The position numbers were made by a program, and so were the translations under genes. 38,811 nt of DNA from Streptosporangiaceae bacterium (lineage in GTDB: Bacteria; Actinomycetota; Actinomycetes; Streptosporangiales; Streptosporangiaceae): the NCBI GenBank assembly GCA_030040155.1, contig JASHUG010000316.1:1-38811 (forward strand), given 5' to 3'. Within the stretch, counting starts at the first letter, position 1; every line of letters begins with the position of its first letter. This document shows positions 7,456-13,962 of this stretch, piece after piece. The notes beneath the pieces are model-generated. The model was not told the DNA's origin and made no database searches. It saw only the letters and a program-made list of their open reading frames with translations.

Positions 7456-8055
7456 TTAACCCTGCCTACTCCACCCTGGGCCGACCGCCAGCCACTCGGT
7501 CTCCCATTCGGTGAGTCTGCGCCGGTCAAGCATCCGGCGGACCGCCCACGTCAGACCGGTCAGCAGTACCGCGAGAGCGGCGAGCGCGACCATCGTGTCG
7601 GCTAGGACGCGGTCGTCAAGCTGGGCAGCGGACAGCGGCGGAATCTCGAGCTTCTCCGCCCGGTTCAGCCAGATCTTCACCTGCGTGTCAGCCGGAGTTC
7701 CGGCCGCGACGGGGTAATTGGCCGTGTGCGCTTGCCCGTTCAGGACCCAGCGGACCGGGGTCACGACGGTCCAGGTATTCGCGCTGCGGCCCGATCTCTG
7801 CGGGCCCGCGGCCGCCTGCAACGCCTCGGCGTTGACCTGATGCCAGGTCACTTTGGCATGCTGCAGCGCCGCATTGTCGGCTCGCACCTGCAGGTCGGTA
7901 AGGGTGTAGATAATCGGGCCCAGGAAGAGGAACAGCAAGATCGCCACCGGCAGCAGCCAGCCGGCGATCACGTCCGAGCGACGGCGCAGCGGGTTGCCGT
8001 CGATGCCCAGCCGGCGAGCCAGCCGTGTCCACCTCGTCGTGGGCGATGCCCTCAT
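7456..8055 (-). CDS. Rv1733c-like membrane protein
   Basis: A 199-residue protein from ATG 8055, chosen because CTGGAG lies 6 bases upstream; the ORF track's longer start has no such site. Layout: basic cytoplasmic N-terminus (TRLARRLGIDGNPLRRRSD), a first membrane helix AGWLLPVAILLFLFLGPII, an extracytoplasmic stretch of about 90 residues, and a second helix MVALAALAVLLTGLTWAV followed by a C-tail ending in WETEWLAVGPGW. This two-helix plan and the terminal W..W..VGP.W pattern match the actinobacterial Rv1733c family, whose function is unknown. A monocistronic unit, divergent from the zinc-ribbon gene at 8457. Confidence 0.8.
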   Translation of the reverse strand: MRASPTTRWTRLARRLGIDGNPLRRRSDVIAGWLLPVAILLFLFLGPIIYTLTDLQVRADNAALQHAKVTWHQVNAEALQAAAGPQRSGRSANTWTVVTPVRWVLNGQAHTANYPVAAGTPADTQVKIWLNRAEKLEIPPLSAAQLDDRVLADTMVALAALAVLLTGLTWAVRRMLDRRRLTEWETEWLAVGPGWSRQG

Positions 8056-8456
8056 ATCTACTCCAGTGACGGCCGGCCACACTCTCACCCTCGCGGCCAG
8101 CACTAATCCGATTGTCCCCCTTCGCGTAACGTCACGGCTACCCGGATACGACTGACTCATCCGCCGGACAGCGCGGTCGGTTCTCCTCGATCATCGTGAC
8201 CGGTCTCCAGGCCACCGGGCCGGCGCGCCGCTGTGAAGGACCGTCGTCTGGGGCGCGCCTCGTTCCCCGCGACTCACCCTCTTGACAAGCGCAACCATTT
8301 CGAGTAATGGCAAATCTGTTGCCTGGGAACCGGATTTCAAAGTAAACCGGTCTGCAGGTTACTCGCGTCTAAGTAGGGACTAGGCGATTGCGCTGCAGAT
8401 GTTGCGAGCGTATTTTCTGGTTACAGCTTGGGGGGGACGGAGAATTGGATACACGT
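8056..8456. other. 401-bp divergent intergenic region with a promoter
   Basis: It separates the minus-strand Rv1733c-like gene from the plus-strand zinc-ribbon operon. It holds a promoter candidate near 8282 and two copies of AACCGG 24 bp apart (8328-8360). I see no credible coding frame: the short ORFs here have no ribosome-binding site. The GC content drops after 8280, as expected for a regulatory region. Confidence 0.5.
8282..8310 (+). promoter_or_regulatory. Candidate promoter of the zinc-ribbon/ATPase operon
   Basis: TTGACA (8282-8287), a perfect -35 hexamer, followed by AGTAATGG at 8303-8310 as a weak -10 region with a 15-17 base spacer. It would give a leader of about 140 bases before ATG 8457. 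The -35 is strong and the -10 poor, so the assignment is moderate. Confidence 0.4.
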
Positions 8457-9251
8457 ATGCCGTGCCCAAGGTGCGGCGCGTCCAACAGGGCGCAGGCACG
8501 CTTTTGCCACGATTGCGGCTCGTCACTCGGGGTCGCCGAGCAGCAGACCCCGGTCGCTGATACTCCCCCAATCACTCAGACCGCATTAGCGGCTACGGCC
8601 TCAGCAGAAAGCGAAGTCCCGGCCTCACCAGCCGATCGGCACGCAGACGCAGGCCAGAGCCAGGAATTGTCATTTGGTCCTGGCCGCCGGGGTGACGGAT
8701 CGTCACCGCTGCGGCGTCCGGCCGTCGCCATTCCGCTCTCGGCCGCGGCCGTCGTGGCCGTGCTCGCACTCGTCGGCTGGCAGGCGAAATGGCCGACCAG
8801 CGTATTCGGCGCGAAGCAGGCAGCTGCGATCTCACGCGAGTCGCCTGTGCGTACCGGGCAGGCAACTCCGGAGTCGTCGTATTCGGCCACGCAGACGCCG
8901 CTCTCGCCGTCACCCACCGCTACTCAAACGGCTTCCCCGACTGCCAGTCCGACGCCAGCGCCCAACCCGGCGGTGGCCACGGTCGACGCCTATTTCGCCG
9001 CGATCAATCACCGCCATTACTCGACAGCGTGGAACCTGCTGGGCGGAGACGGCGGCACCAGTTACGCCGCCTTCGTTAAGGGCTTCAGCGGCACCATAAA
9101 GGATACGGTGACCATTCTCGCTGTACGTGGCGGAGTGGTAACAGTACGACTATCGGCGTTGCACTCGAACGGCGAGGTTCAGGTATTCGAGGGCACCTAC
9201 ACGGTTCGGAACGGAGTCATTGTGAGCTCGAACATCCAGCAGGTCAGCTAG
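8457..9251 (+). CDS. Zinc-ribbon membrane protein with extracytoplasmic NTF2-like domain
   Basis: A 264-residue protein from ATG 8457, chosen so that the zinc ribbon is at the extreme N-terminus: C3, C6, C17 and C20 (CPRCG...FCHDCG). A Ser/Pro/Ala-rich linker, one membrane helix (AIPLSAAAVVAVLALVGW, about residues 90-107), a second Ser/Thr/Pro-rich linker with repeated SPT/ASPTP, then a C-terminal domain beginning AVATVDAYFAAINHRHYSTAWNLLGG, which reads as an NTF2/SnoaL-like fold. The topology is zinc ribbon inside, NTF2-like domain outside. First gene of an apparent operon with a second zinc-ribbon protein and a VirD4-like ATPase. The function is unknown; a sensory or scaffold role is inferred from the layout. 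Confidence 0.72.
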   Translation: MPCPRCGASNRAQARFCHDCGSSLGVAEQQTPVADTPPITQTALAATASAESEVPASPADRHADAGQSQELSFGPGRRGDGSSPLRRPAVAIPLSAAAVVAVLALVGWQAKWPTSVFGAKQAAAISRESPVRTGQATPESSYSATQTPLSPSPTATQTASPTASPTPAPNPAVATVDAYFAAINHRHYSTAWNLLGGDGGTSYAAFVKGFSGTIKDTVTILAVRGGVVTVRLSALHSNGEVQVFEGTYTVRNGVIVSSNIQQVS

Positions 9252-9290
9252 GACTGTCAACCACAGATTCGAAGGGGTGGGTCAGCGCGG

Positions 9291-10214
9291 ATGAATTGCA
9301 CGTCCTGCGGTGAGGTTGTGACCGGAAACTTCTGTGACATATGCGGGTTGGCCGTGGAGGCGCAGCGGCCGCCAGAAATCCCCGATACGGTTCAGCCGGC
9401 CGCCAGCACGGCCGCGTCGCCGACGGCCTCCGCCGCGGTCGCGGCTCCGGCACCGGTCGCGGCTCCCGCACCGTCCGCGCTGGCACCGTCCGCGCCGGTG
9501 ATGACCGGAGCGACCGCGATTGCGGACGCTGGCAAGCTCCCAGGGTCTCCCGTATTTCTGTGCCAGAACGAGCACCTGCTCCGCAGGTACCAGGCGGTCC
9601 AACTACGCACGGCGAGGCGTGGCCAGGGCACGCTCTTCGTCACCGATGCCCGGCTGGTCTTCTACGCGCGAGCCGCAGGACGCGGTACCCAGCGCGCAAG
9701 CTCGATCGTCCAGCAGACGAAGCTGGAGGACGTCACCGGGATGTCGGCGTTCGTGTCCCGCCGGGTGAGCGCGTTCTTTCTCGTCCTGATCGTGCTGTTC
9801 GGGCTGGCCGCAGTTGGCTCGCTGATTACGCTCCAGATCCTCGGGCTCGTCATCTCCCTCGCGGTCGTGGCCGCCTGCCTGATCATGGTGGCTGGGGGCG
9901 CGGCCGAACGGGGGCGGGCTGGCGTCACGATCCACTCGCAGGCGACCCAGACCAGTCCCATCGTGTTCGGCAGTTTCGAGCACAAGAGTCCTTTCGCCAC
10001 GATCCTGAGCGCCTTCTTCAGCCCGTTGCTGATGTTCACGCGCGCCGAAACAGCGTTCGACGTGCTCGTCGGCCGGCCGGGTCCGGACTCAGAGAAGCTG
10101 ATCGCCGAGCTCGGTGCCTTGATCCTCGACCTCCAGACCCGCGGAACGCTGTCCCTCGATCACTGGGGCGAGGTCGGCACCGAGGTGCCAAGGCAGCGGT
10201 CCGCCACGGCCTGA
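9291..10214 (+). CDS. Zinc-ribbon membrane protein with PH-like domain
   Basis: A 307-residue protein. It has an N-terminal zinc ribbon (CTSCG...FCDICG, Cys 3, 6, 15, 18) and an Ala/Pro linker with repeated APAPVAAPAP-type units. The segment FLCQNEHLLRRYQAVQLRT...GTLFVTDARLVFYARA looks like a bacterial PH domain, and a pair of closely spaced hydrophobic helices (AFFLVLIVLFGLAAVGSLI and LGLVISLAVVAACLIMVAGG) follows. A C-terminal alpha/beta stretch ending in a helix (SEKLIAELGALILDLQTRG) completes it. The gene follows the first zinc-ribbon gene after 39 bases and precedes the ATPase gene by 61 bases. The shared N-terminal ribbon suggests the two proteins meet a common partner, perhaps the ATPase. 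No known pathway recognised. Confidence 0.68.
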   Translation: MNCTSCGEVVTGNFCDICGLAVEAQRPPEIPDTVQPAASTAASPTASAAVAAPAPVAAPAPSALAPSAPVMTGATAIADAGKLPGSPVFLCQNEHLLRRYQAVQLRTARRGQGTLFVTDARLVFYARAAGRGTQRASSIVQQTKLEDVTGMSAFVSRRVSAFFLVLIVLFGLAAVGSLITLQILGLVISLAVVAACLIMVAGGAAERGRAGVTIHSQATQTSPIVFGSFEHKSPFATILSAFFSPLLMFTRAETAFDVLVGRPGPDSEKLIAELGALILDLQTRGTLSLDHWGEVGTEVPRQRSATA

Positions 10215-10275
10215 CCAGCCCGGAAGATGCACCGGCTGGACCAGCCCGCGAAATCAACTCAGCTAGGACGGATCT

Positions 10276-11592
10276 ATGGGTCAGCCCGGTGAACTGCGCG
10301 TGTCGATCCTCGAGGGTCAGAGCCTGCGGCGGGCCGACGGAGTGATCGGCTCGGCCGTCGAGCGGGAAAAACAGCAGATCTTCCGGGTAGTGCACGGGCG
10401 CAATGGTGCACTTCGTTTCGACCAGGACTACCTCAGCAGGCACGTCCTGTTCCTCGGCGGGATCGGCACCGGCAAGACCGACGCCATGAAGCACTTCGTC
10501 AAGACCTTGCTCGAGAAGGCGAGCAGCGACGACGTCTTCGTGGTCTTCGATACCAAGGCCGACTTCCTGAAGGCGTTCTACCGGGCGGGCGACGCCGTAA
10601 TCTCCAGCGCACCAGACACCGACCCTGGCGGCGTGCGGTGGAACTTGTTCTCCGACCTGCTCGGTGACGATCGCGCTGACCGGTCGGATCAGATCTACGA
10701 GATTAGCTCCACGATCTTTGGCGACGTGACGTCGCCATCGGCGCAGAACTACTTCTTCGGCGCCGCCGCACGAGACATCTTCGCTGCCGTGGTGGAGGCG
10801 ATGCACCGGGATGGGGGCGCCCATTCCAACTCCGATCTAAGGCAGCAGCTGGAAACGCCAGCCACGGAACTCCTCGACCTGCTCGCTGAGCACCCCGATC
10901 TCGCTGGCTCGGCTCGCTACCTGCAGGGCGAACGAACTCCAGAGCAGATCCTGGCGTTCTTGCAGCAGACGCTGAACACATCGCTGTCCGGCGTCTTCTG
11001 CGAGAAGGGGAACTTCTCGGTCCGCGAGTTCATCCGCCGCCGGGGCGGTCACACCCTGTTCATCGAGTACGACGTCTCGATGGGCAGCCGGCTGTCACCG
11101 ATCTACCGGGTGCTCATGGACCTGGCCATCAAGGAGGCGCTCGGGCTCGGCCGAGCGGGCAAATCGGGAAACGTGTTCTTCCTGATGGACGAGTTCGCCC
11201 TGCTCCCGAGGCTCACGCACATAGGTGACGGCATCAATTTCGGCCGGAGCCTTGGCCTGAGGTTCCTGGTAGCGGCACAGAACGTCAACCAGGTGCTACA
11301 CGCTTACGGCAGCGCCGTCGGCACGAGCATCCTGTCGGGCTTCGGTACGGTGCTGGCGTTCCGCCTCATGGACTCCGGTAGCCGCGATCTTGTCCGCGAA
11401 CGCCACGGCGTCAATCGCAAGGAGATCACGACGTTCGCGCCAGTCCGCTCCGATGGCGTGCACCAGATGACGGTCATGGGCAGCGTCATCGAGGACTGGG
11501 AGATGTCGCGCCTAAGGCGCGGCGAGTGCATAGCGTCCTTCCCCGATGGCCCGCCCTGGGTGTTCGAGTTCGCGAAATACGACGGGTCCTAG
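10276..11592 (+). CDS. VirD4/TraD-like (FtsK-HerA superfamily) ATPase without membrane anchor
   Basis: A 438-residue P-loop ATPase. Walker A is GGIGTGKTD (residues 61-69) after RHVLFL. VFVVFDTKADFLKAFY matches the conserved strand following it. Walker B is NVFFLMDEFALLP (about 301-313), followed by RSLGLRFLVAAQNVNQV, the TraM-recognition/TraG-like segment of type IV coupling proteins. There is no membrane helix, unlike plasmid VirD4, and no relaxase or secretion-channel gene is nearby, so a conjugation role is unlikely. AGGA lies 8 bases before ATG 10276. Third gene of the zinc-ribbon operon. It probably forms a hexameric ring that moves DNA or protein; the membrane could be supplied by the zinc-ribbon partners. 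The substrate is unknown. Confidence 0.85.
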   Translation: MGQPGELRVSILEGQSLRRADGVIGSAVEREKQQIFRVVHGRNGALRFDQDYLSRHVLFLGGIGTGKTDAMKHFVKTLLEKASSDDVFVVFDTKADFLKAFYRAGDAVISSAPDTDPGGVRWNLFSDLLGDDRADRSDQIYEISSTIFGDVTSPSAQNYFFGAAARDIFAAVVEAMHRDGGAHSNSDLRQQLETPATELLDLLAEHPDLAGSARYLQGERTPEQILAFLQQTLNTSLSGVFCEKGNFSVREFIRRRGGHTLFIEYDVSMGSRLSPIYRVLMDLAIKEALGLGRAGKSGNVFFLMDEFALLPRLTHIGDGINFGRSLGLRFLVAAQNVNQVLHAYGSAVGTSILSGFGTVLAFRLMDSGSRDLVRERHGVNRKEITTFAPVRSDGVHQMTVMGSVIEDWEMSRLRRGECIASFPDGPPWVFEFAKYDGS

Positions 11593-11602
11593 GGCTGCCT
11601 TG

Positions 11603-12301
11603 TCAGCCGAGTTCCATTTCCACTTCCGGTCCAGCTGGCTCGATCTTGAGATTCGGCTCGGCCTCATGCGCTATCTGATGAACCACGAGAACGCTCACGG
11701 CATCGTGGGCCCACACGGAAATGTCGTGCGAGATCTCGTGCTGTGTCGTCACGGTCAGCGTCAGGGCAATCTGAAGCGCGACGCTGGCTAGCACCTTAGC
11801 GACTCGTTTGAGCAGCGATATCGCCCGCCGACGGCGGACTGACGAGGTCGTGAGATCGCGCGCTAACGTGCAGACCTCGCGGCGCAGGTCCTCCACCCGG
11901 CGCCTGGCCAGCTTCAGCAGTGCCTCGCGCCTGCTCTTGCCGTGATACTTGGCTGTTTCCTTCACGGCAAGGCGAGCCTCGTCCACGTACGTCTCGTGGA
12001 TCGACACTCCGCGCCTGGCCAGCATGCCGATGGCGTCCCTGAAGGTCGGGCTTAGCAGGTGCACGAAGTCGTCTTGATCAGGGATCGCCTCGGCGATGGT
12101 GCCATCGGTCGGGCGCAGGCCCTGCCACCAGTCGCTGTCGGCCAGCCAGTCTGTGAGGAGGCCGCACGCCTCGCGGCACGCTGCCACGAGCGCCTCGTCT
12201 GCCTCCCGATGCGAAGCGGGGCCACTGGCAGCTGCCTTGTTCACTGCCTCGGTGATGTCCGCGCTGGTCATCGCGATGCGATCGATGGTCACGGCGGCCA
12301 C
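11603..12301 (-). CDS. Unknown helical protein with C-terminal membrane helix
   Basis: A 232-residue protein of no family I recognise. GTG 12301 is supported by AAGGAG five bases upstream. The N-terminal 170 residues are helical and charged, with a His/Asp-containing middle (DQDDFVHLLSPTFRDAIGML) and a very basic stretch (YHGKSRREALLKLARRRVEDLRRE). One membrane helix (VLASVALQIALTLTVTT) is followed by a His-rich tail (HEISHDISVWAHDAV). It is convergent with the ATPase gene, with only 10 bases between the stops. Its conservation beside the ATPase would need testing. The membrane-tail architecture resembles that of toxin or effector proteins, but that is only an impression. Confidence 0.6.
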   Translation of the reverse strand: MAAVTIDRIAMTSADITEAVNKAAASGPASHREADEALVAACREACGLLTDWLADSDWWQGLRPTDGTIAEAIPDQDDFVHLLSPTFRDAIGMLARRGVSIHETYVDEARLAVKETAKYHGKSRREALLKLARRRVEDLRREVCTLARDLTTSSVRRRRAISLLKRVAKVLASVALQIALTLTVTTQHEISHDISVWAHDAVSVLVVHQIAHEAEPNLKIEPAGPEVEMELG

Positions 12302-12497
12302 GGCGACTCCTTCAGGTGCAGTGCGCGATATTCCGGGGATGGGGTCTCATTATGGTGCGGAACCCAGGCAGGCGGTTGACTGCTTGCCCGCCGGTCCGGC
12401 CCCGCCGGGGCAAGAAACCAATTCGCCTGCAGACGGCGTGCCGGGTACGCTCGCTGGACGCATCCTCACGCGAATCCCTGGCTAAGAGGTAGTGATC

Positions 12498-12533
12498 ATG
12501 GCGAACCTCTGCCCGGACGGGCAGCGGACCTAG
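12498..12533 (+). CDS. Possible 11-residue leader peptide (MANLCPDGQRT)
   Basis: ATG 12498 has GAGG eight bases upstream, and the frame stops at TAG 12531-12533, 15 bases before the MFS start. The last half of the frame forms a hairpin CTGCCC-GGAC-GGGCAG (12509-12524). A translated leader with an internal hairpin upstream of an exporter gene is the plan used for ribosome-stalling attenuation of resistance genes. The frame is too short for codon statistics, so it may be chance. Confidence 0.3.
   Translation: MANLCPDGQRT
12509..12524 (+). promoter_or_regulatory. Hairpin in the leader of the MFS gene
   Basis: CTGCCC-GGAC-GGGCAG: a 6-bp perfect GC-rich stem with a tetraloop inside the short leader frame, 25 bases before the MFS start. 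No U-run follows, so it is not a classic terminator; it could pause ribosomes or RNA polymerase. Confidence 0.4.
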
Positions 12534-12548
12534 CGGGTCAGTCGAGCA

Positions 12549-13847
12549 TTGGATGGGGTGACCCCGGCACCGCACCGCCGACGGACCCTGGGCCGCGACT
12601 TCTGGCTCTATTTCGGCGGTCAGCTAACGTCCCAGGTGGGCAGTTCCTTCACCCTTTTCGCACTGCCGCTGCTGGTCTTCAAGCTCACCCACTCTGCCAC
12701 CAACCTGGCGCTCACCACCGCGTCGAACTTCGTGCCCTACTTGCTATTCGGGCTGGTCCTTGGGGCTCTGACCGACCGCGTCAATCGCAAGCGGATGATG
12801 CTGCTCACTGACGTGGGCCGCGCGGTCGTGATCGCCGTACTGCCTGTGCTCGCCCTATCCGGCGCGCTTCGGGTTGAAGATATCTATGCGGTCGCCTTTG
12901 TCCAGTCCACGTTGGGGATCTTGTTCAACTGTGGCGAGTTCGCAGCGATCCCCAGCCTGGTCGGCCGCGGCGATCTGGTTGCCGCCAACGGCCGGATCAT
13001 GGCAACGAACTCGGCCGGCCAGATCCTGGGGCCGATTCTCGCCGGGGTGCTGGTCACCATTATGTCGCCGGCCGACCTGCTGTTCTTTGATGCGGCCAGC
13101 TTCGCCGTCTCGGCTGCTTCGCTGGCGGTCATCCGCCGGAGCTTCAACGCCGCCGACCGGCCAGGACCGGCCAAGGTTGGTGTCGCCGGACTGCTGCGAG
13201 ACGTCCGGGCGGGCCTGCAGTACGTCTGGTCGCAGCCGGTGCTCCGGGGCATCTCGATCATGATGGCCTTGATCAACTTCGTCTCGACCACCGAGATCAG
13301 CCAGCTGGTCCTGTTTGCCAAGCGTGTCCTTGGTGCCACCGACAGCGAGGTAGCCCTGCTGTACGCGGCCGGAGCCGCGGGTGTGGTGATCGTCAGCATG
13401 TCGGCGGCAGCGATCCGCCGGCGACTGAGCTTCGCCGTCACCGCGCTCGGCGCACTTGTCATCGCCGGTCTCTCGGTCACGGCTATGGCCTTGATCGGCT
13501 CGTACCCGGCAGCGCTCGTCCTGTGGGCTGCGGCCTCCGGGTTCGGGCTGCTGTTGAACATCAACACATCGGCGCTACGCCAGGCCATCGTGCCGGATGA
13601 AATGTATGGCCGCGTCATCAGCATCGCTCAGGTGCTGGCCTGGTCAGCAATTCCGCTCGGCGCGCTCGCCGGCGCGGCCGCCATCCAGCTGTCTGGCAGC
13701 GTCGTCGATGTCTATGCCGCGACCGGGGCGTTGACAGCACTGATCGCGCTTTCGTTCGCCTTTTCGTCGGTCGCACATGGTGACCGCTACCTGGCCGAGG
13801 CGGCCCGCCCGGCACCCGCGAACGAAGCCACAGTCGCCGAGACCTGA
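12549..13847 (+). CDS. MFS transporter, drug/siderophore-exporter-like (MFS_3)
   Basis: A 432-residue integral membrane protein with about 12 hydrophobic helices in two halves. FWLYFGGQLTSQVGSSFTLFALPLLVF opens the first helix. LGALTDRVNRKRMMLLTD is the loop 2-3 signature of the facilitator superfamily. IMATNSAGQILGPILAGVL and MYGRVISIAQVLAWSAIPLGALAG are characteristic of the MFS_3/EntS-MefA branch that exports macrolides or siderophores. The start is TTG 12549, or GTG 12558 with GGATGG nearby. It stands alone on its transcript behind a possible leader peptide. The substrate is unknown. Confidence 0.9.
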   Translation: MDGVTPAPHRRRTLGRDFWLYFGGQLTSQVGSSFTLFALPLLVFKLTHSATNLALTTASNFVPYLLFGLVLGALTDRVNRKRMMLLTDVGRAVVIAVLPVLALSGALRVEDIYAVAFVQSTLGILFNCGEFAAIPSLVGRGDLVAANGRIMATNSAGQILGPILAGVLVTIMSPADLLFFDAASFAVSAASLAVIRRSFNAADRPGPAKVGVAGLLRDVRAGLQYVWSQPVLRGISIMMALINFVSTTEISQLVLFAKRVLGATDSEVALLYAAGAAGVVIVSMSAAAIRRRLSFAVTALGALVIAGLSVTAMALIGSYPAALVLWAAASGFGLLLNINTSALRQAIVPDEMYGRVISIAQVLAWSAIPLGALAGAAAIQLSGSVVDVYAATGALTALIALSFAFSSVAHGDRYLAEAARPAPANEATVAET

Positions 13848-13962
13848 CATAATCGCTCGTGGCCACGGCGCCTCGCGCGCCGCGATTGGTGATCCGCCTA
13901 TTGTCACCAGGGTCACCAGAGGCGCGTGCATACCAGCTCATGAGACAAGGAAGGCTGACGCC

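Follow-up and report, generated by a model that had tools for sequence, protein, structure and literature searches.

The window, by which we mean the whole 38,811-nucleotide stretch of Streptosporangiaceae DNA analyzed here, carries a locus that we read, at a probability of roughly 0.55, as a split coupling-type motor, in which a soluble VirD4-type ATPase (gene 3) is anchored at the membrane by the product of gene 2, with no linked relaxase or channel gene. The core of this idea, that a partner encoded alongside it brings a soluble VirD4-type motor to the membrane, was put forward in an earlier note made from the letters of the DNA, and it survives examination of both the co-occurrence of the genes and the family of the motor. 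To our knowledge, VirD4-type motors are known almost solely in the role of gatekeepers, in conjugation and in type IV secretion. If the reading is correct, a conserved clade of anchor-less VirD4 proteins that are accompanied by a dedicated membrane protein but by neither a relaxase nor a channel at the locus would represent a motor class with an independent job. A coupling ATPase lacking transmembrane (TM) segments and having a separate proposed anchor has a published precedent (TraJ/TraI, see below); the association of this motor with the same membrane protein in distant bacteria suggests an undescribed two-part pump. The unit is small, with two conserved genes, and its function is thus directly testable in a laboratory host.

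The locus comprises four open reading frames (ORFs), which lie where the earlier note had placed them (Table 1) and are separated by gaps of 39, 61, and 10 bases. The remainder of the window is ordinary chromosome, with LysR, P450, asparagine synthase, amidase, SbcD/SbcC-like, APH, and PLP decarboxylase genes. The absence of relaxase, channel, or plasmid genes from the surroundings had been remarked upon, and we recognized no relaxase, channel, or replication genes among the window proteins scanned with Pfam; the genome assembly is in 508 contigs and 74% complete, such that the relaxase and type IV secretion system (T4SS) negatives refer to its sequenced part. A scan for promoters and terminators found none.

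Table 1. Coordinates of the cassette and its features in the window
Feature	Position	Strand	Remarks
Accessory cassette, ~4.1 kb	8276..12408	none	Matching site empty in congener G943; edges +/- a few tens of bases
Possible promoter, TTGACA-17-TAATGG	8282..8310	+	Just within the left cassette edge; by eye; weak; consensus scan scored no match
Gene 1	8457..9251	+	Zinc ribbon 8463-8528; one TM segment 8715-8786; extracytoplasmic-type domain 8991-9248
Gene 2, membrane protein	9291..10214	+	N-terminal CxxC pairs; GRAM/PH-like stretch 9558-9707; TM hairpin 9741-9908; conserved ELGALILDLQTRG tail 10107-10145
Gene 3, TM-less TrwB/VirD4-type ATPase	10276..11592	+	Walker A 10456-10479 (GGIGTGKT); Walker B 11179-11196 (FLMDEF)
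Gene 4, convergent helical protein	11603..12301	-	39% identical protein in the same place in G264; no Pfam family

Gene 3 is a TrwB/TraD-type ATPase, as had been proposed. It matches PF10412 over most of the family core with an E value of 2.4e-41 (142 bits against a cutoff of 20.5), its solved relative is TrwB (1e9r; E 3e-14), and the Walker A and Walker B motifs are at residues 61 and 302, respectively. No 19-residue hydropathy window exceeds 1.9, so the protein has zero hydrophobic segments and the N-terminal TM domain of coupling proteins is missing; coupling proteins normally require this membrane domain. The central domain of HerA (DUF87) scores 22.3 bits, below its cutoff of 23.2, and PADLOC gives only weak ATPase matches to gene 3, including Mad8 at an E value of 2e-11, and zero matches to the three other cassette proteins. 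Gene 3 resembles the MADS Mad8 and HerA defense ATPases in being a P-loop motor of the same superfamily, but no further components of those systems were recognized in the cassette. The motor falls in no known chromosomal family with an assigned role.

The distribution of the genes was determined in about a thousand genomes of one phylum, with other phyla reached via plasmids only. The motor profile matches two of 250 genomes of the family (G000 and G264, the latter belonging to another genus) and none of eight congeners; genes 2 and 4 are each present in two of 150 family genomes, the same two that have the motor. The motor, gene 2, and gene 4 are adjacent and identically arranged in both genomes, and the G264 proteins are 55% (motor), about 45% (gene 2), and 39% (gene 4) identical to those of the window. 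Wider sampling of the phylum yielded one further, distant motor (G720). The clade's motor is present on four of 72,556 plasmids, two Curtobacterium and two Paenibacillus megaplasmids, and the gene 2 family is found on those four motor-bearing plasmids and on no others. Gene 2 is directly upstream of the motor in Paenibacillus, and in Curtobacterium it is 2.4 kb upstream with two ORFs between. No motor was found in the viral contigs scanned, the phages scanned gave one weak partial match, and PHROGs gave no useful match; a single Treponema match to the ATPase in a scan of genome contigs was rejected as an antisense fragment inside an unrelated gene.

We compared 16 kb of DNA against congeners and then used local alignment to define the cassette edges (Table 1). 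In G943, the counterparts of window positions 7462-8164 and 12415-13863 are ~110 bp apart on one contig (C417), and the ~4.1 kb of extra DNA in the window corresponds to exactly these four genes. Because this congener lacks precisely that stretch, the four genes constitute a single block, which was probably acquired; gain here is likelier than loss elsewhere, given how few family genomes have the motor. No terminal repeats or target-site duplication were found at the cassette edges, and the cassette differs little from its flanks in base composition. Genes 2, 3, and 4 are a real unit, and one that is more than a chance association, because it is found in two phyla and the empty site of the congener lacks exactly this stretch. 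The supposition that all of the genes travel together stands in part: the motor, gene 2, and gene 4 were never seen apart in the family, and the motor and gene 2 are paired on plasmids, but a domain of gene 1 occurs widely without the motor.

The gene 2 product has two adjacent hydrophobic helices (residues 151-206 by hydropathy), in agreement with the TM pair described earlier. A PH-like nature is plausible; the match to GRAM, a member of the PH superfamily, is subthreshold (18.0 bits against a cutoff of 23.6; E 0.0026), GRAM is matched by two of five gene 2 homologues (best E 0.002), and an AlphaFold model built on a two-row alignment is poor (pLDDT 50) and too weak for fold assignment. The zinc ribbon previously attributed to gene 2 is not sustained, as the N-terminal CxxC pairs correspond to no significant Pfam zinc ribbon; the homologues of G264 and Curtobacterium lack the feature, which in that of Paenibacillus is C-terminal, and so it is not a conserved part of the protein. 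The suggestion that zinc ribbons are a shared device for recruiting the motor was rejected for the same reason. In G264, Curtobacterium, and Paenibacillus, a homologue of gene 2 is encoded in the locus that has the motor, and the homology across phyla is evident at BLASTP E values of about 1e-6 to 1e-15. In the open-access literature, we found no described system that pairs a GRAM protein with a coupling ATPase.

Gene 1 is a different case. Its zinc ribbon (DUF7577; 30.7 bits against a cutoff of 28) and single TM segment by hydropathy are as anticipated, with alternative in-frame TTG starts being possible at 8388 and 8445, and these are followed by a C-terminal domain that is present in 20 of 150 family genomes. 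Among the loci read, this domain is mostly at the end of PknB-type Ser/Thr kinases, and with its frequency in the family this identifies it as a common extracytoplasmic module. Inclusion of gene 1 as a strict member of the unit is unsupported outside the window; in G264, the stretch just upstream of gene 2 is an assembly gap, a run of Ns. We note that the domain (8991-9248; also L021-L025, L027, L030, and L031), recurrent as it is in the family's PknB-type kinases, has no Pfam family. Gene 4 likewise has no Pfam family, and its description as a TM protein is doubtful, since its best 19-residue hydropathy window is just 1.76; its model is all-helical at low confidence (pLDDT 62; two-row alignment), which is insufficient to assign a fold.

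A maximum-likelihood tree of 18 motors, which is small in sampling and rooted only at its midpoint, places the six gene-2-linked motors together with a support of 91/92. With G720, these form a clade with a support of 99/98, outside of which are all eleven comparison coupling proteins, most of them relaxase-linked. None of the seven clade members have a hydrophobic segment, whereas nearly all of the comparison proteins have one or more; a Xanthomonas protein of 407 residues that lacks one may be a truncated call. The Walker A motif is at residue 40-61 in the clade, compared with residue 131-245, with one exception, in the relaxase-linked homologues in which the motif was found. The nearest outside group in the tree contains haloarchaeal coupling proteins (for example, those of Haloarcula JP-L23 and Halomarina BND7), which differ from the window motor in that they have hydrophobic segments at the N-terminus and, in many cases, a relaxase gene next to them. 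Because relaxases are annotated beside some copies in this group, it is a reasonable inference that the motor originated from conjugation proteins via loss of the anchor.

The G720 motor is in an operon (L012:3164-14814) of vWA, PP2C, kinase-like, TM-less VirD4-type ATPase, transglutaminase, and FHA genes, and the kinase-like protein has a possible zinc ribbon and TM segments. The window and G720 both have TM-less motors of the one clade, but G720 has vWA, PP2C, kinase, transglutaminase, and FHA genes where the window has genes 1, 2, and 4. No gene 2 homologue was recognized at the G720 motor locus, and gene 2 is therefore not universal in the motor clade. With its vWA, PP2C, kinase, and FHA genes, the G720 operon is much like the TerY-P loci, for which an association with restriction and defense systems has been described (PMC11090510).

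A precedent for separating the motor from its anchor is TraJ of pIP501, a VirD4-type coupling protein without a TM domain, for which the small, separate membrane protein TraI is proposed as the anchor that completes it (PMC7434980, PMC13037476). The published description is similar to our locus in that a soluble VirD4-type ATPase is encoded beside a membrane-protein gene, but here the partner has two helices and a stretch that weakly resembles GRAM, and the cassette is chromosomal, with no linked relaxase, VirB4, or channel gene. No relaxase, VirB4, channel, or other tra/mob gene was recognized near any motor copy examined, so the motor is not part of a tra operon, and the pairing of motor and membrane protein is kept in G264 and Paenibacillus, with both genes at the same locus in Curtobacterium. 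Relative to TrwB/VirD4 coupling proteins, gene 3 shares the PF10412 core and both Walker motifs, but not the N-terminal TM domain or the linked relaxase and T4SS. The earlier view that the set comes from no described pathway holds in that no described set was matched, but TraJ/TraI does provide a precedent for a TM-less ATPase with a separate anchor.

In the mechanism that we envisage, gene 3 would be a VirD4/TrwB-like ATPase that lost, or never had, its N-terminal membrane anchor, and the gene 2 product, which has two membrane helices and a cytoplasmic region resembling PH/GRAM, most likely provides that anchor as a separately encoded protein; the topology of gene 2, its adjacency to the motor, and their co-inheritance fit such a role. 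Gene 2 would contact the motor and hold it at the inner face of the membrane, and the motor, presumably a hexamer by analogy, would translocate a polymer, with its family resemblance pointing to DNA as the most likely substrate.

We tentatively suggest that the split motor serves as a stand-alone defense/stress or DNA-handling device rather than as an ordinary conjugation module, a weakly held preference that derives from the lack of a linked relaxase or channel gene at every copy examined. Put more specifically, and still as a tentative proposal, it could be a relaxase-free, membrane-tethered VirD4-type DNA pump, composed of the motor and a PH/GRAM-like subunit and encoded by a small cassette that has spread across phyla, and it would function on its own against invaders or in DNA transfer. 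It is very improbable that the locus is simply a chance neighborhood of unrelated genes, an explanation largely refuted for genes 2 to 4 by the same adjacency in another genus, the pairing across phyla, and the one-block empty site; gene 1, with its clearly promiscuous domain, is still a candidate for it. We also think it unlikely that the locus is a remnant or mobilization accessory of a conjugative element, with a TM-less coupling protein and anchor of the TraJ/TraI type served by a relaxase and channel in trans. The sequence family of the motor, the published TraJ/TraI precedent, the motor relatives on plasmids, and the haloarchaeal sister group with adjacent relaxases are all consistent with that explanation, but no relaxase or mating-pair genes are annotated within ~8 kb of the annotated plasmid copies or, on pS16 and pY5S7-1, within ~50 kb either side of the motor, and none are carried by the chromosomal cassette. 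Moreover, all four motor plasmids were typed as nonmobilizable (although such typing can miss Gram-positive systems), and the motor/partner pair is kept across phyla, unlike conjugation debris.

A defense or stress cassette, in which the membrane-tethered motor acts on invading DNA or triggers a membrane response, with gene 1 (and gene 4) as a sensor or regulator, is possible. It would account for the very patchy distribution, including absence from the eight congeners, and for a compact single-block difference with no mobility gene; the sister motor of G720 in its TerY-P-like operon, the occurrence of the gene 1 domain in signaling kinases, and the weak Mad8 match point the same way. The cassette is nonetheless without a nuclease or known effector, no other defense gene was recognized adjoining it, and PADLOC provides just the weak ATPase matches. 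VirD4 ATPases also move proteins, and the FHA, PP2C, and kinase genes of the G720 operon are company kept by some secretion systems, such that the motor might instead drive protein export in a VirD4 or type VII-like manner, with genes 1 and 2 as membrane parts; however, no WXG100, Ecc-type, or channel gene was recognized at any copy examined and there is no obvious substrate, and we regard this as improbable. The TerY-P-like operon of G720 and the patchy distribution tilt the balance slightly, and an accessory defense/stress role is slightly favored over a conjugation accessory and protein export.

Several further features were noticed on plasmids. In Curtobacterium, the coding sequence annotated on the minus strand between gene 2 and the motor (L004:6467-7741) has a W-, L-, and G-rich product and was probably called on the wrong strand, as the plus strand there holds a long ORF of P/E-rich repeats, and in Paenibacillus a 620-residue protein composed largely of acidic SEPEVEQ-like repeats is encoded ~1.7 kb downstream of the motor (L005:10883-12745). 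A third component common to Curtobacterium (L004:5554-6186) and Paenibacillus (L005:9216-10363) was considered, the two proteins being alike by eye, and was set aside when single-sequence comparison gave nothing. A 27% homologue of the Curtobacterium gene adjoining the gene 2 homologue is encoded on a 375-kb plasmid of Arthrobacter caoxuetaonis (L055:8947-9549), which has an RNA ligase gene and no match to the motor clade. Finally, Curtobacterium plasmid pS16 carries an array of 37 tRNA genes, which between them serve nearly all amino acids, together with a tmRNA (L057:30971-43025; NZ_CP126255.1, ~480-492 kb); the array is ~40 kb away from the motor. With this array on the plasmid, and with RNA ligase and DNA polymerase III alpha genes nearby, it is a strikingly self-sufficient megaplasmid.
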